Assembly: GCF_000012885.1 (NCBI RefSeq)
Contig: NC_007498.2
Location: 558,001 to 622,000 of the forward strand
Length of the DNA stretch: 64,000 nt
Reading direction: 5' to 3'
Source: Syntrophotalea carbinolica DSM 2380
Lineage (GTDB): Bacteria > Desulfobacterota > Desulfuromonadia > Desulfuromonadales > Syntrophotaleaceae
The notes under the pieces were generated by a model that saw nothing but the letters and a program-made list of their open reading frames with translations, had not been told where the DNA came from and searched no databases. Below, one piece after another: positions 213 to 42,798 of this stretch. The position numbers were made by a program, and so were the translations under genes. Numbering within the stretch: position 1 is the stretch's first letter; every line of letters starts with the position of its first letter.

Positions 213-222
213 GACCTACCGC

Positions 223-1023
223 CTATTTCTCGACGCGGGTTTCCAGGGGCACGCCTGGCGCGAAACCAGCGACATCGGGAATGAACGCTTCCAGTTGTTC
301 CTGGACCTCGGACATGTTTTCCTGGCGGATTTCGCTCAGGCCTATTTTCCGGTATTCGCCGAGACCTACGATGAGTTCCATATTCCAGCGCGGTAGTGAG
401 CGATCCAGTGTTGAGCTGCTGGTCCGGTCGACGAGGTCGATGGAGCTTTTATAATCATCAATGGCGTCGGATAGGAATTTGGCGGCTTTGCGGCCGTCCT
501 GTTCGAAATTAAGTACACTGTATGCCAGCATGACCGATACATTGCCTTTGAGGTTGAGTAGTTTCCAGTCCTGCGGGCCAGGTTGCATGCCCATGCTATC
601 GAGATTTGCCGCGCATCGGTCGCGCAGGGAGAGCAGCTGCGAGTGGAAGGTTTGCAGTTGTTGCCGTTGTTCCGCTGCCAGATATCGATTGCCGAGCATG
701 GCATTGATCTGTTTGAAGTGCCGGACGGCCAGTTGCCATTGCTGCCATAGACGAGCGTATTCGGCTTCCGGCATGGCCACCCCGAGGGTTTTACCCTGGA
801 GGATGACTTGCTTGAGTTCGTCCAGGCTGGCTTGGTGGTCTTCATCCGGGGGCATGCTCGCCAGATGCGCGTTGAGTTGCTGCAGCGCCTCAAGGTGGGC
901 GGTTTTTTCCCGGAAGCCGACAATGCCGGCCATCAGCAGCGCAACCCCTGCGACCAGCACGAGTAGCAGGCCGGCAAGGGTGGCGCGCTTATGATGTCGA
1001 AGGATATCGTTGATGTTGGACAT
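223..1023 (-). CDS. Membrane-anchored protein of unknown function in MoxR/vWA operon
   Basis: Encodes 266 residues. One clear membrane segment lies at about residues 14-36, preceded by a basic cytoplasmic N-terminus (HHKR), so the rest is probably periplasmic. That rest is mostly helical, with heptad-like Leu/Gln-rich stretches around residues 40-150 that could form a coiled coil or TPR-like bundle. I do not recognise the family. Its place between two vWA proteins suggests the role taken by BatC/BatE (helical repeat proteins) in other Bat operons, but sequence alone does not prove this. The flanking gaps are short, consistent with one transcript. Confidence 0.7.
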   Translation of the reverse strand: MSNINDILRHHKRATLAGLLLVLVAGVALLMAGIVGFREKTAHLEALQQLNAHLASMPPDEDHQASLDELKQVILQGKTLGVAMPEAEYARLWQQWQLAVRHFKQINAMLGNRYLAAEQRQQLQTFHSQLLSLRDRCAANLDSMGMQPGPQDWKLLNLKGNVSVMLAYSVLNFEQDGRKAAKFLSDAIDDYKSSIDLVDRTSSSTLDRSLPRWNMELIVGLGEYRKIGLSEIRQENMSEVQEQLEAFIPDVAGFAPGVPLETRVEK

Positions 1024-1119
1024 GGTTTATTCCTCGCAATTGTCTTGAATCGTTAAATCATGATAGCCATCTGCGGCGGGCCACGGGGTACCGGGCAGAA
1101 TTCTGCAACAACGGTTGCA

Positions 1120-2232
1120 TTACAGCTTTCGCAGCGCTGGCAGGCTGCGCAACAGCAGATGCAAAACCATGAGGCCGAACCCCAGCAGCGCCAGCGATGG
1201 GCGCATCCAGCGGGGTTGAAGGGTGACACGGGTCAGGTTCCGGTTGCTTTCCAGGATGTCGATTTCCCGGTAGACCGCTTCGATCTGCTGGCGATCCAAA
1301 CCCCGGGACGTAACAAAGATACGCCCCACCGACGGTTCGCCGGCTGTTGGTTCCATGGCTTTTTGCACCGCTGCGTCGACCTCGCCGCCGACCGAAATAA
1401 TATAAAACCGGACCCCCACAGCTTTCATCAGGGTGATGATGTTGACCAGGTTAGGCAAACCGCCGCGCCGTACATGGGCGCGCAGGGTCGGCTCGATACG
1501 GCCGTCGGTGAACAGGATGACGGCCATCCCCGTACCCAGCCCGGCGTTGCGGATTTTCTGGGGAATGTCGAGCAACGCACCCGGTTCGCCGAGAAGAAAT
1601 TCGCGCATGCCGGCAATCTGCTCGACGCTCAGTCGGTTGTCCTCCGGCAGCATGGAAAAAAAAGCGGACAGGGAAAGCCAAACCGCTTCGGAGGCATTGG
1701 TGCCGCCGCCGGCTCCCAGTTCCCGATAGATGCGTGAGTGGTTTTTGCTTCGGACCAACGCAAGCTTGGCTTTGAGCAAATCCTTGTCAAACGTCAGCGG
1801 CGCCAGCAGTTTTGCATAGCTGGAAAAAGCCACCAGGCCGATGTAGTCTTCATGGCGGCGCATGTCGATAAAGGATTCAATGCCGTCCAGAGCCAGGTCG
1901 CCAAGGGTTTGACTGGAAAACCGGCTGACCGGTCGTTTCATGGATCCGGACAGGTCGAGGGCCAGAAACAGCCATTTCGATTCAATGAATTCTTCCACCG
2001 TTTCTTTCGAGTAGCCGGGGTTGACCAGACTCATAACCAGGCACAGGTAGACGAGGCCGAAAAGAATCCCGTTATAGTTGCGTTTCCAGAATCCGGGCCG
2101 CAGTTGCGCCATTTCCGGAAGGATGGCCGGAAATGGCAGCTTGCGTCGGGTGCGTCGTCGCAGCAGCAGAAACAGCGGCGCCAAAAGCAGCAACAGCAGG
2201 GCCAGGGGATATTGCAGTTCGAAATCAGGCAT
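1120..2232 (-). CDS. vWA-domain membrane protein (BatA-like)
   Basis: About 370 residues. Two N-terminal membrane segments (roughly 10-24 and 56-70) are followed by a von Willebrand A domain with a metal-ion-dependent adhesion site: DLSGS at residues 93-97, a GGTN motif further on and the later FTDGR strand. A third hydrophobic segment sits near the C-terminus (about 345-365). This matches BatA/BatB architecture. I chose ATG 2230-2232 because AGGGA lies seven bases upstream; an in-frame ATG at 2238 is possible. In other organisms vWA proteins of this type act with MoxR AAA+ ATPases as chaperones for envelope or cofactor-containing proteins. The neighbours (BatD-like, DUF58, MoxR) fit that grouping. 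Confidence 0.85.
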   Translation of the reverse strand: MPDFELQYPLALLLLLLAPLFLLLRRRTRRKLPFPAILPEMAQLRPGFWKRNYNGILFGLVYLCLVMSLVNPGYSKETVEEFIESKWLFLALDLSGSMKRPVSRFSSQTLGDLALDGIESFIDMRRHEDYIGLVAFSSYAKLLAPLTFDKDLLKAKLALVRSKNHSRIYRELGAGGGTNASEAVWLSLSAFFSMLPEDNRLSVEQIAGMREFLLGEPGALLDIPQKIRNAGLGTGMAVILFTDGRIEPTLRAHVRRGGLPNLVNIITLMKAVGVRFYIISVGGEVDAAVQKAMEPTAGEPSVGRIFVTSRGLDRQQIEAVYREIDILESNRNLTRVTLQPRWMRPSLALLGFGLMVLHLLLRSLPALRKL

Positions 2233-2258
2233 CAGCATGTCCCTGTGCGGGGGGGTAA

Positions 2259-3989
2259 TCAGTCTTTTTGGGCATATTCCGGTTGCGGTTGTGCGAAGGC
2301 CTGCAACGCACCAAGCAGCAGGGCGGTACGGTCCGGCAGATCCTTCGGCAGGGGCGCGTCTGCACCGCGTGCAAGAATCTGATCGAACCCGGCGAGCAGT
2401 TCGGCGATCGACTGGCGGCATTCCATGGGCAGTTCGGCTTCGATGCGGCGGTAGAACGAAGCATGGCTGCCGCCGCGCTTGTCCGGATCCAGATCGGCGA
2501 ATTCGGCCAGGTAGTGCTTCCATACGGTGCCCAAAGCGACATATTCCGACAAGCCCGGATGCTGCTGCGCGGCTATAACCGCTGATTGTACGGCAGCGTG
2601 ACAGCGCGCCAGGGCATGGTTTTCCGGTTTTTGCGCGGCCAGGCGACGGTTGCGTCGCAGCAGGGCGGCAACAGTGGCGACCAGTCCGATAAGGAGTAAT
2701 CCCGCCAGAAGAAGGAGTACGGCGTGGCGTTTGGCTTTCGACGCTTCGGCAGGATCGATGCCGGGCAGGGGCTCCGGGGGGACGACCTGCAGTTCGAAAC
2801 CGCTGTGCCGCTCGGGGATCATGGCAGCGATGCGCACCGGCATTTCGTCGGTTTTTGTGCGTTGTACTTTGCTGCCGGGCGCGCCACTGTCGGTGTAGTA
2901 GACCGGAATGCCGGGAATGCTGAATTCACCCGTGGCGTAAATTTTGAGTTGGCCGGTGATGCGAATGGGGCTGCGGTTCAGATCGATAGAGCTTAAGGGC
3001 ACATCGTAGTGAATGTCGTACAGATTGTGGAAAATACCTGCCGGTTTGAGATTGAGGTTGGCAATGGTGCTCGATTCGATCTTGATCCGGTCGGTGAAAC
3101 GGATCTCAAAGGTAAAAGGAATGGCCGAGCCGGGCGTGGCACCGTTCAGTCCGAGATCAAAACGCACCCCGATCGGGGGGACCAGGGGCATCAGCAGCGG
3201 CCTGGCCTGCGCTACGCGGATATCGTCCGCCAGCAGATTGGCTGCCTGCCAGACACTCCGGCGGCAAGGGTCGATGGAGATCTGCTGCCGGTTGGCGGTG
3301 ACGGCTTCATCGGTCGGTACGGCCCCCAAAGCCTGCAGCAGGGCATGGCGTTGCCCCAGGTCGGTTGCGGTTTTCCAGGTGATATCGATGCGTTCGAGGG
3401 GGGCATGGAGTTGATCCTCGATATTCCAGGCCGGATGGGCGTAGAGGACTTGCGGATCCTGGTGTAAACGTGTCATCAGTGTCTTAAACACGTCCTTCGG
3501 CATGTCCCGGCGCAGTTTGTAGGCAGCCATGGCTGGAGCCAAGGCCGGGTCATGAAGAAAATGACTGAAGTAAGCGCCGTATCGGGCGTTAAACGCCTCG
3601 AATGACGGGGGGGCGGCCACGGCCATGCCAGCTTCGGATGTGTTCCTGTCGTTCAGGCGCACCACCAGCCAGGTAAGGTCCATCGTGGGCAAGATGCGTT
3701 TGCCGTTGTCGCCGTAAAACCAGACATCTTCCTGATAGTTCGACCAGATGCGGTCAAAACACGCGGTGCGTTGGGTCTCCATACGGTCCGCGATGGTCTG
3801 CGGCGAGTCTGCTCCCGGTCTTTCCACTTGCCCCGCGGTCTCAGCCGGCAAAACCTGTTGTTCGGGCAGTGGCTGAGCCGCAAGCGGTTGGCATATCAAC
3901 AGCATCAAACAACTCAGGGCAACAGCAAGTGCCCGGCAGGCCGTCGGTCCGATAAATGATGGAGGCGCATTGCGAAGATGGTTTTTCAT
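2259..3989 (-). CDS. BatD-like exported membrane protein
   Basis: A 576-residue protein with a long basic N-region and a hydrophobic core at about residues 18-38 ending in an Ala-rich cleavage-like site. A large, presumably periplasmic domain follows, then one membrane helix at about 415-440 followed by RRNRR, and a C-terminal cytoplasmic helical domain of about 130 residues. That topology, and its position between DUF58 and vWA genes, resembles BatD proteins, but I see no diagnostic motif, so this is a contextual call. AGGGAA precedes the ATG. The preceding DUF58 gene is only about 30 bases away, so one operon is likely. Confidence 0.65.
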   Translation of the reverse strand: MKNHLRNAPPSFIGPTACRALAVALSCLMLLICQPLAAQPLPEQQVLPAETAGQVERPGADSPQTIADRMETQRTACFDRIWSNYQEDVWFYGDNGKRILPTMDLTWLVVRLNDRNTSEAGMAVAAPPSFEAFNARYGAYFSHFLHDPALAPAMAAYKLRRDMPKDVFKTLMTRLHQDPQVLYAHPAWNIEDQLHAPLERIDITWKTATDLGQRHALLQALGAVPTDEAVTANRQQISIDPCRRSVWQAANLLADDIRVAQARPLLMPLVPPIGVRFDLGLNGATPGSAIPFTFEIRFTDRIKIESSTIANLNLKPAGIFHNLYDIHYDVPLSSIDLNRSPIRITGQLKIYATGEFSIPGIPVYYTDSGAPGSKVQRTKTDEMPVRIAAMIPERHSGFELQVVPPEPLPGIDPAEASKAKRHAVLLLLAGLLLIGLVATVAALLRRNRRLAAQKPENHALARCHAAVQSAVIAAQQHPGLSEYVALGTVWKHYLAEFADLDPDKRGGSHASFYRRIEAELPMECRQSIAELLAGFDQILARGADAPLPKDLPDRTALLLGALQAFAQPQPEYAQKD

Positions 3990-4019
3990 CGTTTTTCCCT
4001 TGGTGTGAACATGATCAGA

Positions 4020-4883
4020 TCAGACTCTAGCCGCCAGCCTTCGTGCGAACAGGGTGTTGACGCGGGTTTGAATGTCTTTGGCGCCGACGGGTAATACTGC
4101 TGAATCGATACCGGCTCCGGCCAGACTGCGTACGGTGCGTTCCCGAGCCCTTTTGAGCAGGGTGTTGAACTCCTGTTGACGGGACAGATCCAGGGCTATC
4201 TGGCGGCCCGATTCCATATCCCTGAGGGTCAACAGACCGTTTTCGATATCGGTCAGGCAGTACTCGGATTCCTCCAGTACATGCAGGGCGACCAGCTCAT
4301 GGGCGGGCAGGCGGCTGTCCGCGGCGTCCATCAGCCCCCTCAAGTCGGCAAGGTCCGTGTGAAAATCGGAAATGATGACCCCCAGGCACGAGGATAGCCG
4401 TTTCATGATGAATTCCAGCGCCGGCGCCAGGCGGGTCTGCCGGCTTCGGGCAACGGGTGCCTGTTCCAGTGCCGTAACGATGCGGTGGAACTGTCGCGGC
4501 GCGGCACTTGGAGGAATCCAAACCAATACCTTGTCCGCAAACAGCAACAGGCCGCAGGGGTTGTTGGACCGCAGTGCCGCATGGGCCAGGGAAACCGCCA
4601 GGTCGCGGGCCACGGCGAACTTGTCGCCGAAATGCATGGATGAGCTGACATCGCAGATAAGCAGCAGATTGTAGGCGCTGTCCTTGAGAAATTCCCGCAC
4701 ATACAACTCGCCGCTGCGGGCGCGGGCTTTCCAGTCGATACGGCTCCAGCTGTCGCCCGGCAGGAATTTACGCAGCCCCCAGAACTCGTAACCGGTGCCC
4801 TTGTCGTGCCCTGCCCAGTCGCCGGCCATGTCGTTGCGCGGCGGATGTTTGAGCTGAATATTGAAGCGATACGGCGGTTTCAT
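4020..4883 (-). CDS. DUF58 domain protein
   Basis: A 287-residue protein with the DUF58 hallmark region near residues 25-60 (a YEFWGLRKFLPGDSW segment followed by IDWKARAR, typical of the R-x-Y-x-x-GD-x-x-R-x-I-x-W family motif). A vWA-like half follows, with DVSSSM near residue 79 replacing the classical DxSxS site. DUF58 proteins are almost always encoded directly after a MoxR ATPase and are thought to be its partner in protein maturation. Here MoxR ends 16 bases upstream. No membrane segment is visible, so it is probably cytoplasmic. The family call is secure; the function of the complex is inferred. Confidence 0.9.
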   Translation of the reverse strand: MKPPYRFNIQLKHPPRNDMAGDWAGHDKGTGYEFWGLRKFLPGDSWSRIDWKARARSGELYVREFLKDSAYNLLLICDVSSSMHFGDKFAVARDLAVSLAHAALRSNNPCGLLLFADKVLVWIPPSAAPRQFHRIVTALEQAPVARSRQTRLAPALEFIMKRLSSCLGVIISDFHTDLADLRGLMDAADSRLPAHELVALHVLEESEYCLTDIENGLLTLRDMESGRQIALDLSRQQEFNTLLKRARERTVRSLAGAGIDSAVLPVGAKDIQTRVNTLFARRLAARV

Positions 4884-4899
4884 AAATCACCTGATTGCG

Positions 4900-5931
4900 T
4901 CAGTCCGGGTTTACAGTGCGGGGGACAACGGAACTCACGATGTCCTGCAGCAACATGTCGGCGTGCAGTCCTTCCAGGATGGCGGCATCGCTGAGAATCA
5001 GGCGGTGACCCAGTACCTGCGAGGCGCAGACATCAACGTCCTCAAAGGTCACATAGTCGCGGCCGCGCAGAAACGCATAGCCCTTGCAATAGGCAATAAG
5101 GTGTTCGCCGGCCCGCGGCGAAACCCCCACCGAAACGTAATTGCGGACGGCGGCGGGTGCCTCTGCGGACTCGGGGCGGGTGCGCAGGCAGATATCGAGG
5201 ATGTAGGCAACCACCGTTGGCGAAACGGTCACATGTTGCGCTACATGGTGCTGCATGGCGATGATTTCGTCCGGTTGCAGCAGACAGGGGACAGCCTTCT
5301 GAATGGCTTCGAAGTCGGTACTTTTTTTTCTGAGCAGCTGTTCTTCGAAAGCCCTGGGGGGATAGGTCAGATTGATTTTGGCGATAAACCGGTCGAGCTG
5401 GGCTTCCGACAGGGGATAGGTGCCGAGCTGTTCCACCGGGTTCATGGTCGCCAGAACCATGAATAATTCCGGCAGCTGGTACTGGTCGCGGTCGATGCTG
5501 ACGCGTTTTTCCTGCATGGCCTCGAGTAACGCCGACTGGACTTTCGGTGCGGCCCGGTTGATTTCATCCGCCAGTAGAATGTTGCAGAAAACCGGCCCCT
5601 GATGGAAAGTGAACGTGCCGCTGGCCTGGTCGAATACGGTGGTGCCGGTAATGTCGCTGGGCAGCTTGTCGGGGGTGAATTGAATGCGTTTGAAATCCCC
5701 CCCGATGGTTCGGGCAAAGGTCGCCACGGTAAGACTTTTGGCCAGCCCCGGTACGCCTTCGAGTAGAATATGCCCCTGGGCCAACAGGGTGCAGATGATG
5801 GCCTCGATCATGCGATCCTGACCGATGATGACCTTGGCGATTTCGGCCTCGACCTGCTGGATTCTGGTGCGGAAGCTTTCCGCAGCACAGCGGCTGGCGG
5901 TGGGCGAAGGGTCTTGGCTACGATGGCTCAT
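4900..5931 (-). CDS. moxR: MoxR-family AAA+ ATPase
   Basis: 343 residues with a canonical AAA+ core. The Walker A motif is GVPGLAKS at residues 59-66, and Walker B ends in DE at residues 121-122 within an LLADEINRA context. The ATMNP sensor region and a C-terminal lid follow. This is a normal-length MoxR protein. MoxR ATPases pair with vWA proteins to activate or insert cofactors into client proteins; the founding member supports periplasmic methanol dehydrogenase. Here it heads the DUF58/BatD/vWA run and lies 58 bases after the B12/siderophore-type permease, so it may belong to the transcript that starts at the first Eut cassette. The ribosome site is weak (GGAG 11 bases upstream). Confidence 0.93.
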   Translation of the reverse strand: MSHRSQDPSPTASRCAAESFRTRIQQVEAEIAKVIIGQDRMIEAIICTLLAQGHILLEGVPGLAKSLTVATFARTIGGDFKRIQFTPDKLPSDITGTTVFDQASGTFTFHQGPVFCNILLADEINRAAPKVQSALLEAMQEKRVSIDRDQYQLPELFMVLATMNPVEQLGTYPLSEAQLDRFIAKINLTYPPRAFEEQLLRKKSTDFEAIQKAVPCLLQPDEIIAMQHHVAQHVTVSPTVVAYILDICLRTRPESAEAPAAVRNYVSVGVSPRAGEHLIAYCKGYAFLRGRDYVTFEDVDVCASQVLGHRLILSDAAILEGLHADMLLQDIVSSVVPRTVNPD

Positions 5932-5989: not shown

Positions 5990-7045
5990 TCAGAAAAACA
6001 CGAATTTACGGCGATCCCGGATAATCAGATAAAGAAAAAAAGGCCCGCCCAGCAACGCGGTCAGTACACCGATGCGCAGGCCGCCGCCGCCCCAGACGCG
6101 CACCACGCAGTCCGAAAAGACGACCAGGGCTCCCCCCAGCACGCCGGCGGAAGGAATGAGCGCGCGGTTATCCGAACCGACGAAGCTGCGCATGATGTGC
6201 GGCGCGATGAGGCCGACGAATCCGATGGCACCGGAGACGGCGATGGCGCCGCCGGTCAACAGTGCGGCGAAAAACAGCAACATGTTGCGGGAGCGGGTGA
6301 CGTTGACGCCGAGGTTGGCGGCGATCTCTTCGCTGAGCATGATGATGTTGAGGTCGCGGGCATACAGCATCGACCACAAGGTGCCGATCAGGGTGACGAG
6401 CAGCACGATATGCACATGTTGCCAGCTACGGTTGGTCAGGTCGCCCATCAACCAGCCGACGATCTGCCGGGCCATTTCGAACTGATCCGTCGAAAGCACG
6501 ATGACCAGCGATGTCAGGGCACCGAAAATGGCGTTGAAGGCGATGCCGGCCAGCAGCAGGGTATAGCGCGAAGTCAGCCCGCCGCTGGTGGCGATGCCCA
6601 GCACGATCAGCATGGACAAAAACGCGAACAGTATGGCAAACGAGGGTACCGCGTAGATGCTGGTGGCCGCCCAGCCGATATAAATGGCACTTACCGCACC
6701 CAGCGCCGCCCCGGAACTGGTGCCGATCACCCCCGGGCTGGCCATGGGGTTCTTGAATATACCCTGCATGATGGTGCCGGCGGCGCCCAGTGCAAATCCC
6801 ACCAGTACCCCTGTCAGGGTGCGCGGCACCCGTCCCAGCCAGACGATGGCCTCAAGGGCCGGATCGCTCGGCATGTCCATGTGCAGAACCTTGGCCGCCA
6901 GGATGCGGCCGATGTCCTGCAGCCCGATTTCCCACGGCCCGATGCGGATCGACAGAAACATGCCGATCAGCAGCAGGAGCGTGGCTGCCGAGATGGCTAC
7001 GACGCTGGTAATAAAAAAATGTCGGCGATCAGAACGACGATTCAT
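5990..7045 (-). CDS. FecCD/BtuC-family ABC transporter permease
   Basis: A 351-residue polytopic protein with about ten hydrophobic segments and the FecCD family signatures, including the region around TGVLVGFALGAAGTIMQG and the Gly-rich SGAALGA loop. This family forms the channel of ABC importers for cobalamin, ferric siderophores or heme. It overlaps the end of the binding-protein gene by 17 bases, so the two are translationally coupled. Because the window is dominated by B12 synthesis and a B12-dependent enzyme, cobalamin or a cobalamin precursor is the most economical substrate, but the sequence cannot separate this from iron chelates. Confidence 0.9.
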   Translation of the reverse strand: MNRRSDRRHFFITSVVAISAATLLLLIGMFLSIRIGPWEIGLQDIGRILAAKVLHMDMPSDPALEAIVWLGRVPRTLTGVLVGFALGAAGTIMQGIFKNPMASPGVIGTSSGAALGAVSAIYIGWAATSIYAVPSFAILFAFLSMLIVLGIATSGGLTSRYTLLLAGIAFNAIFGALTSLVIVLSTDQFEMARQIVGWLMGDLTNRSWQHVHIVLLVTLIGTLWSMLYARDLNIIMLSEEIAANLGVNVTRSRNMLLFFAALLTGGAIAVSGAIGFVGLIAPHIMRSFVGSDNRALIPSAGVLGGALVVFSDCVVRVWGGGGLRIGVLTALLGGPFFLYLIIRDRRKFVFF

Positions 7046-8102
7046 AGATCAATCCCGCCAGGTAGTTGATGCTGGCGACCAGGTACTGCGAGGAACTCAG
7101 CAGGTAAACGGTCGGCATCTTGCGGATATTTTTCCGGCGTACGGCGCGCGCCGTGGCCAGCATCGGCTGGCTGTAAAGTTGCCGGTCGTAGGTGCTTTCC
7201 TCCGGTACGATGATCACTTCCGGATCCCATTGCAGCAGGGTTTCATAGTCGATCTGCTTGAAATTACGAATCCCCTTGACCGCGGCGATATTGGTCACGC
7301 CCAGGGCTTTGCACATGCTGTCGAAGGTGGTGCCGGCGCCGGCCACATAAGCCATATTGTCGTAATATAACACCGTCGGCGGTTTGGCCGCAGGAGTGCG
7401 CCGCTTGCGTACCGCAGTCTGGATATCGCGCAGCTTTTCATCCATGACGGCCACCAGGCGCCGGGCCGAGTTCTCCTCGCCGGTGAGACGGCCGGCCAGC
7501 AGGATCTGCTCCTTGATGGAGTCCAGGTCGTCAAAGAATCCGAATTGCGCCATGGGGATGTGGGCGGTGCGCAACTGGTGCAGAAAATTCGCGTTGGAAA
7601 AGAACGAGGTCATGACCAGGTCGGGCCGGTAGCCGATGACGATTTCCGCGTCATCGGTACCGTACACGGGCAGGTCGTCGGGCAGTAGCGGCGCAAGGAA
7701 TGAGTATTGCCGATCCTTGCAGCTCTTGTGGACAGCCACCAGGCGTTCATGGGGCACGATCGCCCAGAGGATCTCCGTGAGACCGGTGGAGTGGGGGATA
7801 ATGCGCAAGGGCTGATGCTCAAGGGTGACCGAGCGCTGTTCCTGGTGCTGCTGGTCGGTGGCAAAATCATAGTGCATAAAACGATAGGGGACGGTACGGG
7901 GGTAACTATCCGTCGTTACCGGCGTCGGTCGGCGCGTGTCGCTTAAGGCGCCCATCAACGCATCCATCTCCAGGGGAAACCTGCGCGCTCCGCGGGCGTT
8001 TCCCGCCGCTGAGCACACGCCGCCTAGCAGCGTTACAAGCAGAGCAAGCCCGAGGATTCCGGCAAGCAGGGGCTTACCGGTAAAACAGCAGCGAAACGCC
8101 AT
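7029..8102 (-). CDS. BtuF-like periplasmic substrate-binding protein
   Basis: About 357 residues. The start at ATG 8100-8102 gives a good signal peptide (basic FRCCFTGKP, hydrophobic core, cleavage near CSAAG). The mature part has the two-lobe helical-backbone metal-receptor fold of the BtuF/FepB family: a PDLVMTS segment, a long connecting helix with many charged residues, and a second lobe containing WDPEVIIVP. The start overlaps the 3' end of the ATPase gene by 29 bases; GGAGG lies rather far upstream, so a different start is possible. It is the specificity component for the adjacent permease and ATPase, probably for a corrinoid or siderophore. Confidence 0.85.
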   Translation of the reverse strand: MAFRCCFTGKPLLAGILGLALLVTLLGGVCSAAGNARGARRFPLEMDALMGALSDTRRPTPVTTDSYPRTVPYRFMHYDFATDQQHQEQRSVTLEHQPLRIIPHSTGLTEILWAIVPHERLVAVHKSCKDRQYSFLAPLLPDDLPVYGTDDAEIVIGYRPDLVMTSFFSNANFLHQLRTAHIPMAQFGFFDDLDSIKEQILLAGRLTGEENSARRLVAVMDEKLRDIQTAVRKRRTPAAKPPTVLYYDNMAYVAGAGTTFDSMCKALGVTNIAAVKGIRNFKQIDYETLLQWDPEVIIVPEESTYDRQLYSQPMLATARAVRRKNIRKMPTVYLLSSSQYLVASINYLAGLIYESSF

Positions 8103-8850
8103 GTTCGGTTGCGATTTCCTCCACGCCGACATGGAATACCTCCTTGATGCGTTGTTCGGCAAAGCCCTGCTCGGCCATGCCGTGATAATGGACACGGCCC
8201 TGCTGCAGCAGGGTTACGGTGTCGCAGTAACGTCGCGCAAGATCCAGATCGTGGATGCTGATGACGATGGTTTTACCTGCGGCGCGCAGGCTGGTCAGCA
8301 ATTCCATAATCTCGAGCTTGTGCCGTATGTCGAGGGCGCTGGTCGGCTCATCGAGGAGGATGATCGGCGCCTCGGTGGCCAGCGCTCGCGCCAGACTCAC
8401 CAGTTGCGCCTCGCCGCCCGACAGCTCGTTAATGAGACGATGGCGGAAGACCTCGGTGCCGGTGACCTCGAGAGCCTGATCGATGATGTCCTGGTCTCGC
8501 TGGCGTAGCCATTGCAGTCGTTTCAGATGCGGATGGCGTCCCATGGCGACGAAATCGGAAACCAGGATGGAAAAATCGAGACGCGTATCCTGCTGCACCA
8601 GGGTCACCAACTGGCTCAGGGATTTGCGTGGAATCCGGCGATAATCCCGCCCTTCAATGAGCACCCGGCCGTTTTGCGGTTCCCAGATACGGCAGATATT
8701 GCGCAGCAAGGTACTCTTGCCGGAACCGTTGGGTCCGATAAGCCCATGGATGCCTCCGGCGGCAAAACGGCAATTGATGTCTTTGAGAATCGCATGGCCG
8801 CCGATGGCAAAGTCGAGCTTTTCAATCTGCAGGATCGGTTGTTCCGTCAT
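8074..8850 (-). CDS. ABC transporter ATP-binding protein (BtuD/FepC type)
   Basis: 258 residues with a complete nucleotide-binding domain: Walker A GPNGSGKST at residues 39-47, Q-loop in LVQQDTRLD, signature LSGGE, Walker B ILLDEPTSALD and switch His in ISIHDLDLA. The FepC/BtuD/FhuC subclass is indicated by the FSILVSDFVAMGRHPH segment. Its start codon overlaps the stop of the upstream membrane-protein gene (8850), so the importer is translationally tied to the Eut cassette rather than being a separate unit. That coupling is the strongest sequence hint that uptake through this transporter serves the Eut system. Confidence 0.93.
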   Translation of the reverse strand: MTEQPILQIEKLDFAIGGHAILKDINCRFAAGGIHGLIGPNGSGKSTLLRNICRIWEPQNGRVLIEGRDYRRIPRKSLSQLVTLVQQDTRLDFSILVSDFVAMGRHPHLKRLQWLRQRDQDIIDQALEVTGTEVFRHRLINELSGGEAQLVSLARALATEAPIILLDEPTSALDIRHKLEIMELLTSLRAAGKTIVISIHDLDLARRYCDTVTLLQQGRVHYHGMAEQGFAEQRIKEVFHVGVEEIATEHGVSLLFYR

Positions 8851-9668
8851 TATTCCTCATAATCCTTATGGCGCAGAACCAGTTTCCAGGCCAGCGGCAG
8901 GCTGAACTTGGCGATGCCGGTCATCAGCGTTCCGCACAGCACGATGCCCCACATGACGCCATGACCCAACTGGTCCTGAAACAGACCGGTGGTCAAGGTT
9001 GTTGCCCACAGCAGGACCAGGCCGAGAATCATCTGGATATTCTGACTCATGGCGTGAATACCCCAAAAATTATCCGAGATATGGCTTAGTTGGCCGTTGC
9101 GCAGCTTGATCTCGATGAGTTTGAACCAGATGCGACCTTCCGCGACCTGCGCCGAACCATCACAGATGTGATGCATCAGATACAGTACGATAAGGACGTA
9201 TCGTCCTGCCGCCATGGTACCGAACAGTTCGTTGAACAAAGGCGGGTAGCACAGCAGCAGCAACACCGCCCCCAGCGCCTGGCCTCCGCCTACCAGGGCC
9301 ATGGCCCGTATCAGGTGTCGCACCTGACTGTTGGTATCCGCAAAGCGTTCCAGATAATCGACAAAGGACGAAATCTTGACGTTGCTGATAAAGGTGATGC
9401 CCGGGTAAAAGTACTTGGTCAGAACGCCGAGCACAGCCGCGACCTTGAATTCGGTCTGAGCCATGGAAAACATGGTATAGAGTACCGCACCTTCCAGAAT
9501 GCTCTTACCGAGAGTGTACAACAGGTTGCCGATCTCGCCATAGCGATAATAGGGACTTAGTCCCATAGCATGAAACCAGAGGGCGGTTTTATGCAGGACG
9601 TCCCGCCACAAAGGTTGGGGTGCGGATTGCGGATCGGGCGCTACGGCTTTCAGGGCTGTTTCGGACAT
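8850..9668 (-). CDS. Polytopic membrane protein of Eut cassette 1, family not recognised
   Basis: About 272 residues starting at ATG 9666-9668 with AGGA seven bases upstream. It has a hydrophilic N-terminal tail of about 35 residues, then five or six hydrophobic segments (strongest near 120-140, 155-175, 215-235 and 240-260). Conserved features shared with the paralogue at 37401-38249 include a GKSILEGAVLYTMFSMAQTE stretch, an FYPGITF/YPGITF loop and a helix with DGSAQVAEGRIWFKLIEIK, so the two are clearly homologous along their length. I know no named family that fits. It could be a transporter for substrate or product of the exported lyase, or an assembly factor. It is translationally coupled to the downstream ABC ATPase. 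Confidence 0.85.
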   Translation of the reverse strand: MSETALKAVAPDPQSAPQPLWRDVLHKTALWFHAMGLSPYYRYGEIGNLLYTLGKSILEGAVLYTMFSMAQTEFKVAAVLGVLTKYFYPGITFISNVKISSFVDYLERFADTNSQVRHLIRAMALVGGGQALGAVLLLLCYPPLFNELFGTMAAGRYVLIVLYLMHHICDGSAQVAEGRIWFKLIEIKLRNGQLSHISDNFWGIHAMSQNIQMILGLVLLWATTLTTGLFQDQLGHGVMWGIVLCGTLMTGIAKFSLPLAWKLVLRHKDYEE

Positions 9669-9674
9669 GGGCAT

Positions 9675-9844: not shown

Positions 9845-12112
9845 TTACATTTCCATCAGCAGTTTGACCGTCTGGCGGGCCGCTTCGGCGGGAACCAGGC
9901 CGGTGTCGGAAATGCCGGACAGAACTTTGGACGAGTCATGGTCGACCGAGCCGGTTTTGGCCCAGGTGCTCGGCTTGACTTTGACCAGGTAAGCGGAGAA
10001 AGCATGATGGCCGCTACCCGGGCGTTCGCCGATGATGTGAACAACGGCTTTGGCTTTGCTGCCGACCTTGCTGAACAGCGTTTCACCAGCTTTGTAGCCG
10101 GCGCGGACACGACCGCCGGTCACGACGATGTTCTTGTCGGACAGGGTCAAGCCAGCTTTTTTGCACTGTTTTTTCAGTTCCTTCAGGTAAGGCATCAGGT
10201 GTCCATCATCCATGATGGCCTTGGCGTTCAGGCCGTCGGAAATAACAACCTGCACGTCAGGAGCTTTGTTGCCCCAGGACGCAGCCAGTTTGTCGAGGGT
10301 GGCAACGGCCGACGCCGACAGTTCTTCACCGGTACCCGGTGCGGAGATGTAGTTCTCGCGGTCGTGAGCCTTGGATTTGATGCTCACGGCGTTGGGGATG
10401 GAATCGATGAATTCAGGAGTGAATTCGGCCCACAGGCTGATTTTGGCATCGTCATACAGGTCGTGGATACGTTTGTTGGTTACAGGTTCCAGATCCCAGA
10501 TGTTTTCGCCGTAGCCCACGGCAAGGTCGACACCGCGGCCGCGAACGTTGGCAATCTTCTTCTGACCTTCGGCATAGATTTCCTTGAAGGAGCGCTTGTC
10601 GCCTTTGGCCTGACGGAATTTGTAGTAAACCCAGGCAGGGTCGCCAAAGTGCTTGGTCGGTTTGCCGTTGGCGTCGATGACTTCGATTTTTTTGTAAAAG
10701 TCCCACATGGCGTCGTTGACTTTGAAGCCGAATTTTTCACGAATACGCACGTGGTCCTGGAAACCGGTGGTCAGGTAGCTGAGCATCGGGTCGTTACGGG
10801 TAGGCAGAGCCATCAGGTAGGCCGGGTTGGCAGGAGCGATCTGGTCCTGGCACCAGGCCAGGTCATCGAGGGTAACGGGCATGTGCAGGGTCGAGCAGAT
10901 ATCGAGACCCAGTACCAGGCCGTGCAGTTTACCCATAACGATGTCTTCCAGGCAGCAGCGCACCAGCTGCTCGCGGGTTTTGAAAACCTCGGGACCGATG
11001 AATCCGGCCACGTCGTTGACGTGCAGCCAGACCTGGTCTTCGGTCACACCCTTGGCTTTGGCGGTCACCTGTTTGAGCGCGCGGGAGAAACCGTATTTGC
11101 GGGATTCATGCACGACCATGTCGAAGCCGTGACCGTGGCCGTTGGTGTAGTCGGCGCCCTGGCCGGTTTCGAAGTAGAGGCTGTAAGGACCGGTACGCAT
11201 TTTGGCGTAGTCGATCATTTTCTGGATGGTCAGGTCGAAGGTCTTGTTGGCGCTCTCGGTGCCGGCGAGACTCTGGAACCAGATCGCGGTGGAACCGGGC
11301 TCCTCTTTTTCGGCAGCGGCCTGCCCGTCGATATGGGACAGAACACACCAGGGAATGGTTTTTTCCAGGCCGAAAGCGGTGACGATTTCCTTCAGAGCGT
11401 TTTCGACGCGAAGGGTCGCTTCCAGCTGGCTGTCGACGGGGTTGGTACCGATGATGATGTCGCCGACGCCGTAGGAGAAGCCGTCGAATACCTGCATCTG
11501 GATGTCTTCTTTGTTGTCGGTCGGCGAGTTAGGCTGAATGCGCGCCCCGATGTAACCTTTTGCGCCGATTTTGGAGCCGGGCAGAGGGTTGAATATTTTG
11601 CTGCCGACGCGGATCAGTTCATCGTTGGACATCAGTTTGACCACGGAACCGATGACGTCGCTGTGCAGGCCGCCCATGATGGCTTTGATATCGGCTTCGG
11701 ATTTGGTGAGCAGGAAGTTCTTCAGCTCGCCCATGGTCATGTTCTTGATTTTGTTGTACTTCGCTTTGTCCGTGGTCTTGCGGATCAGTTCTTCCTGGCC
11801 ATCCACGAACAGGGGATTTTCAAAAATGTCTTTGATCTTGGTGTTGGCCAGCAATTTGCGGGCGTTTACGCGGTCCGCTTCGGTGTCAGCTGCAACACCG
11901 AGGCCTTCGTCACCTTCTTTGAACGCATTGGCGGCGCCGATGACTTGTTGATAGGTGGTTTGATCGAACTTCCCTTTGGTGCGGTTGACGTACTGCATGA
12001 CGTCTTCACCGGGCTTTACGCCGCCGATGGTGACGGCTCCGGCCATGCTGGCCAGAAAGGTCATTACCAGCGCGCCGGTAATGCCTGCTACGAATTTCCC
12101 CTTTTGTAACAT
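9845..12112 (-). CDS. eutBC: Exported EutB-EutC fusion: ethanolamine ammonia-lyase (copy 1)
   Basis: 755 residues from ATG 12110-12112 (GGAGG seven bases upstream). A Sec-type signal peptide (basic LQKGK, hydrophobic core, cleavage near residue 26, ASMAGA) precedes a complete EutB-type TIM barrel. Residues that match the EutB active site are present in order: R191 and Q193 in ARIQPN, N224 in IGTNP, E315 in FETGQG and D404 in LGLDIC. From about residue 575 the chain continues into the EutC cobalamin-binding half (DVQVVISDGLNA, GRVRAGY, GERPGSGHH, VDHD...SGISDT); the N-terminal extension of enteric EutC is missing. The usual enzyme is two cytosolic polypeptides, so both fusion and export are unusual. 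The predicted reaction is adenosylcobalamin-dependent conversion of ethanolamine to acetaldehyde and ammonia. No reactivase EutA is seen nearby. Confidence 0.92.
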   Translation of the reverse strand: MLQKGKFVAGITGALVMTFLASMAGAVTIGGVKPGEDVMQYVNRTKGKFDQTTYQQVIGAANAFKEGDEGLGVAADTEADRVNARKLLANTKIKDIFENPLFVDGQEELIRKTTDKAKYNKIKNMTMGELKNFLLTKSEADIKAIMGGLHSDVIGSVVKLMSNDELIRVGSKIFNPLPGSKIGAKGYIGARIQPNSPTDNKEDIQMQVFDGFSYGVGDIIIGTNPVDSQLEATLRVENALKEIVTAFGLEKTIPWCVLSHIDGQAAAEKEEPGSTAIWFQSLAGTESANKTFDLTIQKMIDYAKMRTGPYSLYFETGQGADYTNGHGHGFDMVVHESRKYGFSRALKQVTAKAKGVTEDQVWLHVNDVAGFIGPEVFKTREQLVRCCLEDIVMGKLHGLVLGLDICSTLHMPVTLDDLAWCQDQIAPANPAYLMALPTRNDPMLSYLTTGFQDHVRIREKFGFKVNDAMWDFYKKIEVIDANGKPTKHFGDPAWVYYKFRQAKGDKRSFKEIYAEGQKKIANVRGRGVDLAVGYGENIWDLEPVTNKRIHDLYDDAKISLWAEFTPEFIDSIPNAVSIKSKAHDRENYISAPGTGEELSASAVATLDKLAASWGNKAPDVQVVISDGLNAKAIMDDGHLMPYLKELKKQCKKAGLTLSDKNIVVTGGRVRAGYKAGETLFSKVGSKAKAVVHIIGERPGSGHHAFSAYLVKVKPSTWAKTGSVDHDSSKVLSGISDTGLVPAEAARQTVKLLMEM

Positions 12113-12194
12113 GTGTTTACCTCCGTCTTGTTTTGATGGGGGGCTGTCCGGCCTGCGGCAGGTGCCGTAGTCCGGATATGGGGTTGTTAAAGTT

Positions 12195-12235: not shown

Positions 12236-13354
12236 TTACTGACGCAGCTCCTTTGCTGCTTCCCACATGGCGTTGAAAGCCTGCTCGGTCTCGTCGCTGA
12301 GAACCCGCCACAGGGCTACGGTTTTGAAGTAGGCGTCATCGCCCACGTGGAACATGGCTTTTTCCTCTGCGTTGAGGGTGTTGCCGGTGTCGGCCATGAC
12401 AGGTGAGACACCTTGAGATTTGACCACGTCGGCCTGACGTGCGGGCTCAAGCATGAAGTTGATCCACTCTTCGGCCAGGGTTTTTGTCATGCCTTTGGCG
12501 CCGGAACCGATGTACCAGCAGTCGATCCAGGCGGTGCCGCCTTCGGCGGGCGTGGCCAGGCGCCAGTTGCCGCCTTTGAGGTTGGCGGCCTGAGCCGCGA
12601 AGCCCCAGGTGGTGGCCAGTGCCAGTTCGGGGAATTCCTCCGGATTGGCGGCGCCGTCCCACAGGCTCTTGGCGTTTTTGGCCAGCGCGTTGAGTTTTTC
12701 CTGAACCTTGGCGCGGTCCAGATTGTTGATGTCGAAGATGTCTTCATAGCCGTAACCGAGAGCCAGGGCCGAGATCCAGACATTCACCTTGGGAAAGTTG
12801 TTGTTGATGGTGTACTGACCGGCATACTGGGGATCCCACAGCACGTTCCAGCTGGTTGGAGCGGCAGCAACCTTGTCGCGATTGAATGCCAGACCGTAGG
12901 GACCGCAATTGTAGGGAACACCGTAGCGTACGCCGTTGTAAAACGGCGTCTGGTCGTTACGGAAAACTTCCATCATTTTTGCCAGGTTGGGGATGTTGTT
13001 CACATCCACGGGCTGCAGATACTGCTTGCCTTCCTGAAAGGAGAAGAAACGCGGTATTTTGGGCAGTTCGATGGGCGGGGAGATCAGATCCGCCTTATCG
13101 TCTTTAACGGCCTGGAAGAATTCGTCCTGATCGGTAGGGTTGAAAATTTCGACATCGACATCGACGCTGTATTTGTCCTTGACCAGTTTCTGGAAGTCCT
13201 CGACATAGGGCTTGGCGTAGCCGCCCCAACAGGTGATGCGCAAGGTTTCTTTTTGGGTCTCTGCCTTTTTGGTGCAGGCGGGGGTCAGCAACAGAGCGCT
13301 TGCGGCTACAACGGCCGCAGTTGTGGAAACGACTCCCCACAAGGTTTTTTTCAT
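12236..13354 (-). CDS. PotD-like solute-binding lipoprotein of Eut cassette 1
   Basis: About 372 residues from ATG 13352-13354 with GGAGG eight bases upstream. The N-terminus is MKKT plus a hydrophobic core ending in TPAC, a slightly atypical lipobox, so a lipoprotein is likely. The mature part belongs to the spermidine/putrescine-type periplasmic binding family: an LRITCWGGY strand near the start, ADLISPP, YGVPYNCGPYGLAFN in the hinge region and a C-terminal KSQGVSPV motif. The family binds small cationic amines, which suits ethanolamine, but no permease of the PotBC type is encoded nearby. The protein may therefore hand substrate to the exported lyase or to the cassette membrane protein. 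Closely related to 40796-41905. Confidence 0.88.
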   Translation of the reverse strand: MKKTLWGVVSTTAAVVAASALLLTPACTKKAETQKETLRITCWGGYAKPYVEDFQKLVKDKYSVDVDVEIFNPTDQDEFFQAVKDDKADLISPPIELPKIPRFFSFQEGKQYLQPVDVNNIPNLAKMMEVFRNDQTPFYNGVRYGVPYNCGPYGLAFNRDKVAAAPTSWNVLWDPQYAGQYTINNNFPKVNVWISALALGYGYEDIFDINNLDRAKVQEKLNALAKNAKSLWDGAANPEEFPELALATTWGFAAQAANLKGGNWRLATPAEGGTAWIDCWYIGSGAKGMTKTLAEEWINFMLEPARQADVVKSQGVSPVMADTGNTLNAEEKAMFHVGDDAYFKTVALWRVLSDETEQAFNAMWEAAKELRQ

Positions 13355-13447
13355 GACGTTCCTCCAGACATGCGTTGGTTTCAGGAAAGCGTTGATAGAT
13401 TGTCTTTGCCAATAATTCCGCGCGGTGCCGGACATATCGCGGAAAGG

Positions 13448-13519: not shown

Positions 13520-14257
13520 TTAGAAGGTAAAGGTCAGGTTAAGGGCCGCGGCCGATTCGGTATCGATGAGTTCCTTGGCGGCGCTGCTGATCGGCGACGA
13601 GAAGATCACGATCGGGCTGAGGGTCAGCTGGTCGGTCAGGGCGTAATCAAGGCTGGCGCTCAGCTCATAGTTATGCCATCCGGAGTAGTCGGCCACGGTG
13701 CCATCGGCGTGCTGGTTGTAAGAAACCAGGGCGCCCAGGTTCAGGGTGGTGTCGGGTACCCACTGGGTAAGGTCGAAGCTGTGGCTGATGTCAAAGCTGA
13801 AGAACAGGCCGTCTTCTTCGGCGCGGTCCCAGTCGTAGGAGATTTTCAGGTTCGGAGACAGCAGGGTGTTGAGGGTGATGGTAGCGAACAGTTCGTTGGT
13901 GTCTTCGCCTTCGATCATGTACCAGATATCCCCGATCGAAACGGAGATCAAATCGTTCACATCGTAAGCGTAGGTCAGGATAACATCGGTTTCGTTGAGC
14001 TCGCCGGCAGGCCAGTTGTCGCCACCGGTCAGCTGCCAGTTATGCCAGGTGCTGAGGGTGAAACCGCCGCCGAGGGTCAAATCCACGCCTGCCTGAATGG
14101 TCGGGCGGGAGTCACTCAAGTTAAATCCACGCCACATGTACTTGTCCCAGATGCCCGCGTAGGCATCGCCCTCCACTTCGATTGCCGCCGTGGCCGAGCT
14201 GGCGAAACCGGCAATCAGCATAAAGACAGAGACCAACAACACACTCCACTTTTTCAT
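13520..14257 (-). CDS. Outer-membrane beta-barrel-like protein (Gcw_chp-type) of Eut cassette 1
   Basis: 245 residues from ATG 14255-14257 with GGAGG nine bases upstream; longer upstream starts lack a ribosome site. A signal peptide ends near ATA. The mature protein alternates polar and hydrophobic residues throughout, contains repeated aromatic girdle-like segments (DKYMWRGFNLSDSRPTIQ, STWHNWQLTGG, NYELSASLDYALTD) and ends in Phe, as outer-membrane proteins do. The WRG.x.SDSRP.Q pattern recalls the Gcw_chp/TorF family of proteobacterial barrels. It is the first gene of the cassette, so it probably supplies outer-membrane passage for the substrate. The paralogue at 42061-42798 has exactly the same length. 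Confidence 0.85.
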   Translation of the reverse strand: MKKWSVLLVSVFMLIAGFASSATAAIEVEGDAYAGIWDKYMWRGFNLSDSRPTIQAGVDLTLGGGFTLSTWHNWQLTGGDNWPAGELNETDVILTYAYDVNDLISVSIGDIWYMIEGEDTNELFATITLNTLLSPNLKISYDWDRAEEDGLFFSFDISHSFDLTQWVPDTTLNLGALVSYNQHADGTVADYSGWHNYELSASLDYALTDQLTLSPIVIFSSPISSAAKELIDTESAAALNLTFTF

Positions 14258-14773
14258 AACGATGTACCTCCATAAAGGAATGAAATAAGGACAGGCGTTC
14301 CTCCGGGCCATCCGGAGATCCACCGATCCGGGAAAAGGCATGTGAAACCCCGGCTAATGGCGACCCGCCGAGGATGAAAGGCATGATTGGCAAAGGGGGG
14401 CAGTGGGGTGGAACATACAGGCTGAAAAGGGCAAGACGATTCTGCAGAAACAGAATGTGCGACCGGGCGAGCGGTCTTCAATATGAACTTGTGTGCCATG
14501 ATCGTCATCAACCGGTTCATTGATTACCCTGTCCAAACGACATAGGAGGAGCCGATATCGGCCATGGAAGACGTGGTGTTTCCGGACTCCGGGGCTCCTG
14601 GGTTAGAACGGATTTTTACGGAGCGTCAAACCATGCTCCAGCTACCATTCATGAGTTAAAATACCCCAGGAGGGGATCACGGGAGTATCCCCCAACGGAG
14701 GGGAATTTGACTCACCAATTGGGGGGATAGAGAGGGGGTGAAGGGGTAAATGGCCGAAATGAGTATGGTTAGT
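14258..14773. other. Intergenic region between cbiJ and Eut cassette 1
   Basis: About 516 bases with no convincing coding sequence on either strand. It must contain the minus-strand promoter of Eut cassette 1, but I see no clean -35/-10 or -24/-12 pair and no cobalamin riboswitch. A stem-loop with ATCCCCC/GGGGGAT arms lies at 14687-14728, downstream of cbiJ, and may act in its 3' end formation; similar arms flank the end of the second cassette at 37381-37399. Confidence 0.5.
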
Positions 14774-37013: not shown

Positions 37014-37091
37014 ATCGTTTTTTATCCGCCTGGTACGGTTTGCGCACGAGCAGAATTGCCAGACCTCAATCCTCGAAGGTCATAAACAGCA

Positions 37092-37262
37092 CGTGGGCAG
37101 GACAGGCAGGTCTTCTGGCTTCCGGGTCATATCTCCGGCCACGCCTTCCCTTCCGTGTTTACGAAAAGTGGCATCGTGTGGCCATTGTCACCGGTTACAG
37201 CGGCGGGACCGCGACGGATTTACACCGTCTTCCCTGTTAGGCTTTTGGAGCACCTGTCCTTG
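37092..37262 (-). promoter_or_regulatory. Cobalamin riboswitch
   Basis: Read on the minus strand, the element begins with ACAGGTGCTC, then AACAGGGAA, a GGTGTAAATCC segment, CCGCTGTAACCGG, a GATGCCACTT B12-box-like segment, CGGAAGGGAAGG, and ends with AGCCAGAAGACCTGCCTGTCC. These are the conserved core blocks of the AdoCbl riboswitch in correct order, and the outer arms ACAGG/CCTGT pair. With the terminator at 36979-37013 it should shut off cobA through at least cbiB when cobalamin is plentiful. Confidence 0.95.
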
Positions 37263-37400
37263 AGCAAATTGTGTGGTGCGAGATCGGGGTTTCGGAAGGG
37301 CGTGCGCATATCGCCGAGCAAGCCATACTGTGTGTCCCGATATCTGAATTGAGTTTTAACAGATATCCGAACCTAATGCCATCCCCCAAATGGGGGGATT

Positions 37401-38249
37401 TCATGATGGCTCAGAGGGGGGAGTTGCCTGCGGGGCATGTCGCAGGCGTAAGTGCCAGGCCAGCGGCAGAGTGAATTTGGAAAAAGCGGTCAGCAAGGTT
37501 CCGCTCAGCACGATGGTCCACATGACCCCGGCATCGAGACGGTCCCGGAACAGGCCGGTGATCAGGGTTGTGCCCCATAGCAGGATTAAGCCGAGCATAA
37601 GCTGAATGTTTTGGCTCATGGCGTGGATACCCCAGAAGTTTTCGGAAATGCGGCTCAGGTTGCCATGGCGTAGTTTGATTTCAATGAGTTTAAACCAGAT
37701 GCGTCCTTCTGCGACCTGGGCTGAACCGTCGAAAATATGATGCAGCAGATAAAGCACAATGAGCAGATATCTGCTGAATCCTCCGCTATCGAAGCAGGTC
37801 GTAAAAAACGGTGGATAACATAATACCAGCATCAGCGCGCCCAACGCTTGGCCGATGCCAACCAGGGTTACGCCGCCGATGAGTTTTTGAAGTTGCCGGT
37901 TCTTATCCGTAAATCGTTCCAGATGGTCGACAAATGAGGAGACTTTTACGCTGCTGACAAAGGTGATACCGGGGTAGATGTATTTGGTCATGACTCCCAG
38001 TACGGCGGCAACTTTATACTCGGTCTGGGCCATACTGAACATGGTGTATAAGACAGCCCCCTCAAGAATGCTTTTGCCGACAGTGTACATGAGATTACCG
38101 GTTTCACCGAAACGGTAGAAGCGGCTGATGACCAGTGCATGGGCCCATAAATGGGTTTTGTGGATGACATCGTGAATCAGGCCGGGGCGTTTGTCCTCGG
38201 GAGGTGGTCCGGTCTCCGATGGGGGTACGGGAGGAAGAATAAGGTTCAT
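37401..38249 (-). CDS. Polytopic membrane protein of Eut cassette 2, family not recognised
   Basis: 282 residues, homologous along its length to the protein at 8850-9668. The identical or near-identical blocks are a GKSILEGAVLYTMFSMAQTE stretch, YPGITFVSSVKVSSFVDHLERF, DGSAQVAEGRIWFKLIEIKLR and the ENFWGIHAMSQNIQ loop. The N-terminal Pro-rich tail and the C-terminus have diverged. Five or six hydrophobic segments are visible. There is no strong ribosome site before ATG 38247-38249. Retention in both cassettes of the same position, directly after eutBC, argues for a dedicated partner of the exported lyase. Confidence 0.85.
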   Translation of the reverse strand: MNLILPPVPPSETGPPPEDKRPGLIHDVIHKTHLWAHALVISRFYRFGETGNLMYTVGKSILEGAVLYTMFSMAQTEYKVAAVLGVMTKYIYPGITFVSSVKVSSFVDHLERFTDKNRQLQKLIGGVTLVGIGQALGALMLVLCYPPFFTTCFDSGGFSRYLLIVLYLLHHIFDGSAQVAEGRIWFKLIEIKLRHGNLSRISENFWGIHAMSQNIQLMLGLILLWGTTLITGLFRDRLDAGVMWTIVLSGTLLTAFSKFTLPLAWHLRLRHAPQATPPSEPS

Positions 38250-41905: not shown

Positions 41906-42004
41906 AAGTAATCCTCCTGCCGTTTCGGTGTGCGGGGTTCGTCGGTTATCTTGGCTGCTTGCCTGTTGCCTGGCCGGCACTGGAAACGGGCCAGTCAAAC
42001 TTTG

Positions 42005-42060: not shown

Positions 42061-42798
42061 TTAGAAAACGAAAGTCAGGTTAATGGCTCCGGCTGTTTCA
42101 GTGTCGATACTAGCCTTGGCGGCGCTGCTGATGCCCGAAGAAAAAATGATGGTCGGACTGATGGTCAGCTGGTCGGTCAGGGCGTAATCGAGGCTGGCAC
42201 TGAGTTCGTAGTTGTGGAACCCGCCGAAATCACCAACTGCGTAATCGGTATGCTGATTGTAAGCTACGAGGGCGCCAAGATTCAGAGCGGTATTGGGTAC
42301 CCATTGGCCGAGATCGAAACTGTGGCTGATGTCCAAGGTGTAGTAGAGGCCATCTTCTTCAGCTGCGTCCCAGTCCCACCAGATTGTGAAGGTTGGAGAG
42401 AGAAGAGTATTGAGGGTGGCATGAATGAATAACTCGTTGGTATCTTCACCCTCGATCATGTACCAGATATCCCCAACCGACATCGAAACCATGTCGCCCA
42501 GATCAAAGGCGTAGGTAAGAATGACATCGGTTTCGTTGAGCTCTCCCGAGTCCCAATTGGGACCGCCTGTCAACTGCCAGTTGTGCCAGGTGCTGAGCGT
42601 CCAGCCGCTGGCGAGGCTCAGGTCGATGCCGCCCTGAATCGTCGGGCGGGAATCACTGAGGTTGAAACCACGCCACATGTACTTATCCCACAATCCGACA
42701 TAGGCATCGCCCTCGACCTCGATCTTGGCTTGGGCTGTTGATGCCAGACCTGCACATAATACGAACATCGCGAGAAACAACACGCTCCACTTTTTCAT
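42061..42798 (-). CDS. Outer-membrane beta-barrel-like protein (Gcw_chp-type) of Eut cassette 2
   Basis: 245 residues from ATG 42796-42798 with GGAGG nine bases upstream, exactly the length of its paralogue at 13520-14257. The signal peptide (MKKWSVL plus hydrophobic core, ending TAQA), the KYMWRGFNLSDSRPTIQ segment, repeated amphipathic beta strands and a terminal Phe are shared. It probably forms an outer-membrane pore for the substrate of the exported lyase. It is the promoter-proximal gene of the cassette. Confidence 0.85.
   Translation of the reverse strand: MKKWSVLFLAMFVLCAGLASTAQAKIEVEGDAYVGLWDKYMWRGFNLSDSRPTIQGGIDLSLASGWTLSTWHNWQLTGGPNWDSGELNETDVILTYAFDLGDMVSMSVGDIWYMIEGEDTNELFIHATLNTLLSPTFTIWWDWDAAEEDGLYYTLDISHSFDLGQWVPNTALNLGALVAYNQHTDYAVGDFGGFHNYELSASLDYALTDQLTISPTIIFSSGISSAAKASIDTETAGAINLTFVF

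Follow-up and report, generated by a model that had tools for sequence, protein, structure and literature searches.

Two putative fused ethanolamine ammonia-lyases with predicted export signals in Pelobacter carbinolicus belong to a deep clade spanning three phyla

The window, which is the whole 64-kb stretch of DNA analysed here, encodes two EutB-EutC fusion proteins (EutBC copies 1 and 2). We consider that both are adenosylcobalamin (AdoCbl)-dependent ethanolamine ammonia-lyases (EALs) working outside the cytoplasmic membrane, and we put the probability of this reading at roughly 0.72. We infer the compartment, the activity, the cofactor route and the role of a neighbouring gene module; the fusion, the signal, the intact active site, the fold, the clade, the gene order and the missing EutA, EutH and microcompartment (BMC) proteins were read from sequence. 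What is new here is one deep clade in which export signals are present on all members whose N-terminus is complete. To our knowledge, no AdoCbl radical enzyme is known outside the cytoplasm. Because the fused copies and their relatives in three phyla bear export signals, our results suggest that radical chemistry so far placed only in the cytoplasm can run outside it.

Results

The open reading frame of copy 2 starts with an ATG at 12112 and encodes 755 aa (Table 1). Pfam EutB matched residues 53-487 with 497 bits (cut-off 25), and Pfam EutC matched residues 553-755 in the same frame with 118 bits (cut-off 25.8). The protein also scored 662 bits against the NCBIfam EutB model, above the curated cut-off of 554, and about 92-95 bits against the NCBIfam EutC equivalog, below the cut-off of 230. 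Its sequence matches in the PDB were exclusively EAL chains. A structure model of copy 2 was computed with 23 family members as input and reached a mean pLDDT of 80.8. Both of its halves matched EAL chains: comparison with E. coli EutB (3abo_A) gave a Foldseek TM of 0.86 (on the target) and a Z of 38.7 over 435 residues, and comparison with the EutC chain gave a Z of 22.

All of the active-site residues were present in the alignment. Residues R160, Q162, N193, E287 and D362 of the E. coli enzyme align with R191, Q193, N224, E315 and D404 of copy 2 and do not vary across the 23 family members. The same invariance (23/23) was observed for Q246, S247, F258, V326, F329, L402 and Y404 (E. coli numbering), and M392 is methionine in 22 members and isoleucine in one. 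The assignment of substrate- and adenosyl-contacting residues among them follows the E. coli EAL structures. In addition, the linker GYGENIWD is invariant. The exported clade has Cys387 and Cys421 in every member and Cys386 in 30 of 32; all three cysteines are absent from 29 other EutB proteins.

Copy 2 begins with a predicted Sec-type signal peptide. Its N-terminus reads MLQKGKFVAGITGALVMTFLASMAGA, followed after the predicted cleavage by VT, and comprises a basic n-region, a hydrophobic core (h-region) and an A-G-A cleavage site of the A-x-A type; the corresponding sequence of copy 1 is MRLRSKFLYGITFGLALTFVASLAGA, followed by VA. In both copies, EutB homology begins about 30 residues past the signal. 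A start codon ahead of the hydrophobic segment is well supported, because GGAGGT lies 6 nt upstream of the ATG; the next in-frame ATGs fall within the hydrophobic core, and the start of copy 1 is likewise preceded by GGAGGT. The original prediction for this DNA, which covered copy 2, had described a EutB barrel running in frame into EutC behind a Sec-type signal and had named the same five active-site equivalents. The barrel and its continuation were confirmed by Pfam and NCBIfam domains in one frame, the five residues by their exact and invariant alignment, and the signal by the sequence, the ribosome-binding site and its conservation in relatives. That prediction had also raised the possibility of a true start after the hydrophobic segment, and the ribosome-binding site places the start before it.

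Table 1. Features in the window and at its edge. Positions are those of the window unless a locus is named.
Feature	Position	Strand	Basis
EutBC copy 2, 755-aa EutB-EutC fusion with predicted signal peptide	9845..12112	(-)	
Predicted Sec-type signal peptide of copy 2, residues 1-26, predicted cleavage between A-G-A and V	12035..12112	(-)	sequence; conservation in relatives
Ribosome-binding site GGAGGT, 6 nt before copy 2 ATG	12119..12124	(-)	
EutB barrel, residues 53-487	10652..11956	(-)	
EutC cobalamin-binding part, residues 553-755	9848..10456	(-)	
EutBC copy 1, 753-aa fusion with predicted signal peptide	38423..40684	(-)	
Gcw_chp / TorF-like putative porin, cassette 2; ORF as listed, true start probably 14257	13520..14341	(-)	
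SBP_bac_6 (PotD/YdcS-like) binding lipoprotein, cassette 2	12236..13435	(-)	
274-aa multi-helix membrane protein, cassette 2	8850..9674	(-)	
BtuD-like ABC ATPase	8074..8850	(-)	
BtuF-like periplasmic binding protein (Peripla_BP_2)	7029..8195	(-)	
BtuC-like permease	5990..7045	(-)	
MoxR AAA+ ATPase (mxaR position)	4900..5931	(-)	
DUF58 protein (mxaS position)	4020..4883	(-)	
576-aa exported/membrane protein (mxaA position, by place only)	2259..3989	(-)	
VWA protein (mxaC position)	1120..2238	(-)	
266-aa membrane protein (mxaK position, by place only)	223..1023	(-)	
Second VWA protein, beyond the window edge	L108 11190-12212		
Gcw_chp / TorF-like protein, cassette 1	42061..42966	(-)	
Binding lipoprotein, cassette 1	40796..41998	(-)	
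Membrane protein, cassette 1	37401..38249	(-)	
Cobalamin riboswitch ahead of cobalamin-biosynthesis genes after cassette 1	37088..37272	(-)	

Copy 1, which the original prediction had missed, is 71% identical to copy 2. Across the genome (3,665,893 bases, one contig) there were two EutB matches, both inside the window. Neither EutH nor a BMC shell protein was found in the genome, and no ethanolamine permease scored above the cut-off, the match of 82.6 bits being far below 381.75. The genome search for EutA gave just a 45-residue match within a 441-aa frame, which is too short to be taken as EutA and is probably FtsA.

Relatives were gathered without regard to their N-termini, and signal-peptide calls rest on sequence, conservation and controls. 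All members at least 56% identical with a complete N-terminus had an export-type N-terminus; the fragment L027, whose N-terminus is missing, was left out of this judgement. The Desulfuromonadales members have Sec-like signals, those of Sinorhizobium, Pararhizobium and Phyllobacterium have twin-arginine signals of the form S/T-R-R-x-L-L, and those of Bacteroidota have twin-arginine-like signals (R-R/K-x-F-L), mostly with a lipobox-like cysteine after them; several of the latter read RK instead of RR. TatC was found in 7 of 7 genomes checked. The canonical EutB proteins that these searches also gathered, at identities of about 33% or lower, have short N-termini and no export signal; in three of them (L100, L105 and L042) the stretch of high hydrophobicity belongs to a long upstream or an internal region and not to a signal-like start. 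In the maximum-likelihood tree, the exported group was set apart from all others with support of 100/100; inside it, support was 98/89 for rhizobia, 94/99 for Bacteroidota and only 83/52 for Desulfuromonadales. The EutB-EutC fusions with export-type N-termini, for which the original prediction had proposed a genome search, form this one deep clade in three phyla. The export trait was kept while the type of signal changed, which would otherwise be hard to explain, so being outside probably matters. At more than 50 positions, the exported clade has a fixed residue that differs from canonical EutB, and some of these positions adjoin catalytic residues (T223 and S228 around N224, T323/N324, and L403 beside D404). 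Most Desulfuromonadales having exported EutBC carry two copies per genome.

In Desulfuromonadales, the gene order runs from a Gcw_chp/TorF-like outer-membrane protein through the binding lipoprotein, EutBC, the 274-aa membrane protein, BtuD, BtuF and BtuC to MoxR, DUF58, a large exported/membrane protein, VWA, a small membrane protein and VWA. This order is kept even at loci of 67-69% identity. Some Desulfuromonadales loci are truncated by the end of a contig, and in some genomes what comes after one of the EutBC copies is instead a set of cobalamin-biosynthesis genes. No permease gene accompanies the binding lipoprotein in its cassette. The 274-aa membrane protein matched nothing in Pfam or NCBIfam, and its best Foldseek match (E 0.35) was not significant; a multi-helix membrane protein of about 275 aa always stands directly after EutBC in Desulfuromonadales, as it does twice in the window. 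In the window genome, the gene run extends to an aldehyde:ferredoxin oxidoreductase, a BtuB-like TonB receptor and TonB. A cobalamin riboswitch precedes the receptor (L108 8501-8677), and a molybdenum/tungsten cofactor riboswitch (L108 10836-10955) overlaps the 5' end of the oxidoreductase ORF, so the true start of the latter lies further in. The Desulfuromonadales-type neighbourhood, B12 genes included, is absent from the Bacteroidota and rhizobial members within the flanks examined.

Clusters of the MoxR-VWA type (Bat operons) occur widely. Starting at MoxR, the six genes here (MoxR-DUF58-x-VWA-x-VWA) follow the order of mxaRSACKL, a cluster associated with methanol dehydrogenase (PMC3615186). 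When the module was compared with mxa-type clusters from Hyphomicrobiales, MoxR, DUF58 and the first VWA protein showed detectable homology to R, S and C, and the last gene (L position) was found to contain a VWA domain. Profile comparison of the A and K positions with MxaA and MxaK gave E values of 0.017 and 0.23 and did not support strict orthology of these slots. The module thus shares with mxaRSACKL of the periplasmic methanol dehydrogenase its order, a nearby enzyme that is putatively periplasmic here, and homologous R, S and C, with A and K corresponding by position only; the client of the mxa cluster is a PQQ/Ca enzyme, whereas here it would be a B12 enzyme. One further MoxR-type protein in the genome scored over the cut-off. 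This mxaRSACKL-like run (window 1-5931 and L108 11190-12212) occurs in a fermenting anaerobe and is conserved beside EutBC and BtuCDF.

Discussion

From the gene order and the published description, the two window copies are almost certainly Pcar_0467 and Pcar_0491. Fused and duplicated genes with duplicated neighbours, in the absence of eutA, had already been reported in 2012 as eutBC1 and eutBC2 of Pelobacter carbinolicus (Pcar_0491 and Pcar_0467), in a species whose strains grow by fermenting ethanolamine (PMC3543383). The passages of that account drawn on here mention neither export nor a signal peptide of EutBC, nor the wider clade, nor a link to MoxR-VWA, and the export was apparently not noticed in it. 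We found no report of a periplasmic or Tat-exported EAL in the open-access literature. In comparison with E. coli EutBC (PDB 3abo/5ysr; NCBIfam NF011649, NF003971), the fold of both parts and the checked catalytic and adenosyl-contact residues are shared, whereas the proteins described here form one chain rather than two subunits, have an export signal and a lineage-specific linker and cysteines, score below the equivalog cut-off in EutC, and have no EutA partner and no microcompartment.

AdoCbl is made and adenosylated inside the cell, and the known reactivase EutA does not fit a compartment that is free of ATP. That a Sec substrate must obtain AdoCbl in the periplasm counts against the extracytoplasmic reading. 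Under that reading, EutBC would be exported unfolded by Sec as an apo-chain, fold in the periplasm and bind AdoCbl there, with cobamide supplied either through the gene run's own TonB/BtuB receptor or from the cytoplasm by another route. The enzyme would then split ethanolamine into acetaldehyde and ammonium, and neutral acetaldehyde would diffuse inward without a carrier and be oxidised in the cytoplasm by the aldehyde:ferredoxin oxidoreductase that the run also encodes, which would make an ethanolamine permease and a microcompartment dispensable. The MoxR-DUF58-VWA module and BtuCDF would probably serve EutBC assembly, cofactor supply or enzyme recovery, replacing EutA. In rhizobia and Bacteroidota, Tat or Tat-like signals would let the enzyme exit already loaded, as a folded holoenzyme, and the RK in several Bacteroidota signals weighs against this. 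Reductive dehalogenases (RdhA) differ in fold and chemistry, carrying out reductive dehalogenation with iron-sulfur clusters and not AdoCbl radical chemistry. They are nevertheless corrinoid enzymes with a twin-arginine signal that exports folded protein (PMC4918011), and they provide a precedent for the Tat-type EutBC members, whereas Pelobacter EutBC would use Sec instead. We offer this combination, in which the enzyme is assembled with its cofactor in the periplasm after Sec export, upkeep falls to MoxR-VWA and BtuB/BtuCDF instead of EutA, and Tat relatives leave the cytoplasm loaded, as a tentative scheme that is less likely than not.

Other explanations have to be set against catalysis outside the membrane. 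EutBC might be exported and catalytic with another small amino alcohol, such as 2-aminopropanol, as its main substrate and ethanolamine as a secondary one. The clade-fixed positions beside catalytic residues and the presence of two copies in most Desulfuromonadales having EutBC would fit such a specialization, but all of the checked substrate- and adenosyl-contact residues are the same as in the E. coli enzyme and the ethanolamine-fermenting species has no other EutB, which leaves this possibility unlikely. The 2012 proposal that one copy may act on choline (PMC3543383) is unneeded, as a CutC choline trimethylamine-lyase (1591 bits against a cut-off of 1050; G000:C1:1103691-1106051) accounts for choline; it is present although the genome lacks microcompartment shell proteins. 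A polyethylene glycol lyase, which the genus had brought to mind, was rejected: the literature search gave nothing relevant, and the active site is EAL-like. The original prediction had left room for a cobamide/ethanolamine-binding sensor with a kept fold. More widely, EutBC might be a non-enzymatic periplasmic protein that binds or senses cobamide or ethanolamine and perhaps aids B12 acquisition. EutBC does adjoin BtuDFC and cobalamin biosynthesis genes, and the reactivase is absent; no sensor or signalling domain is fused to it, however, and its Bacteroidota and rhizobial members lack adjoining B12 genes. Because the catalytic residues, needless for a binder, are invariant across three phyla and the two copies are the only EutB homologues of an ethanolamine-fermenting species, we regard this idea as improbable.

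We also see little chance that the hydrophobic N-terminus fails to work as an export signal in Pelobacter and that the enzyme is cytoplasmic or lies on the inner face of the membrane, with ethanolamine imported by the lipoprotein and the membrane protein. These two proteins flank EutBC and could indeed mean substrate uptake, as proposed for the neighbours in the passages of PMC3543383 drawn on here, and the cytoplasm is where the cofactor is synthesised. Nevertheless, no Desulfuromonadales copy whose N-terminus is complete lacks the Sec signal and its consensus cleavage site, other phyla swap this signal for a Tat-type one rather than lose it, and even an uncleaved N-in anchor would still put the enzyme outside. 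Homology, the model, the invariant catalytic residues, the conserved but varied signals and the lack of EutA, EutH and BMC proteins thus all favour the periplasmic AdoCbl radical enzyme first suggested for copy 2; its compartment and its activity are the parts that they make probable. A clade that bears both Sec and Tat-type signals makes periplasmic cofactor delivery, repair and radical chemistry directly testable in culturable bacteria, including P. carbinolicus, Sinorhizobium meliloti, Polaribacter and Echinicola. If an extracytoplasmic EutBC is real, genome-based prediction of ethanolamine use would change, with a permease and a microcompartment being unnecessary, and acetaldehyde and ammonium would be released outside the cell membrane.

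Two further loci were observed among the relatives. Methylocystis carries an independent EutB-EutC fusion without a signal (L054 7974-10169), in which the catalytic Asp362 position is an alanine within MGMAPCY. On the symbiotic plasmid pSymA of S. meliloti (L049 269-12292), the EutBC with a predicted Tat signal follows adhP, phosphoketolase and glycosyl transferase/glucoamylase-family genes.
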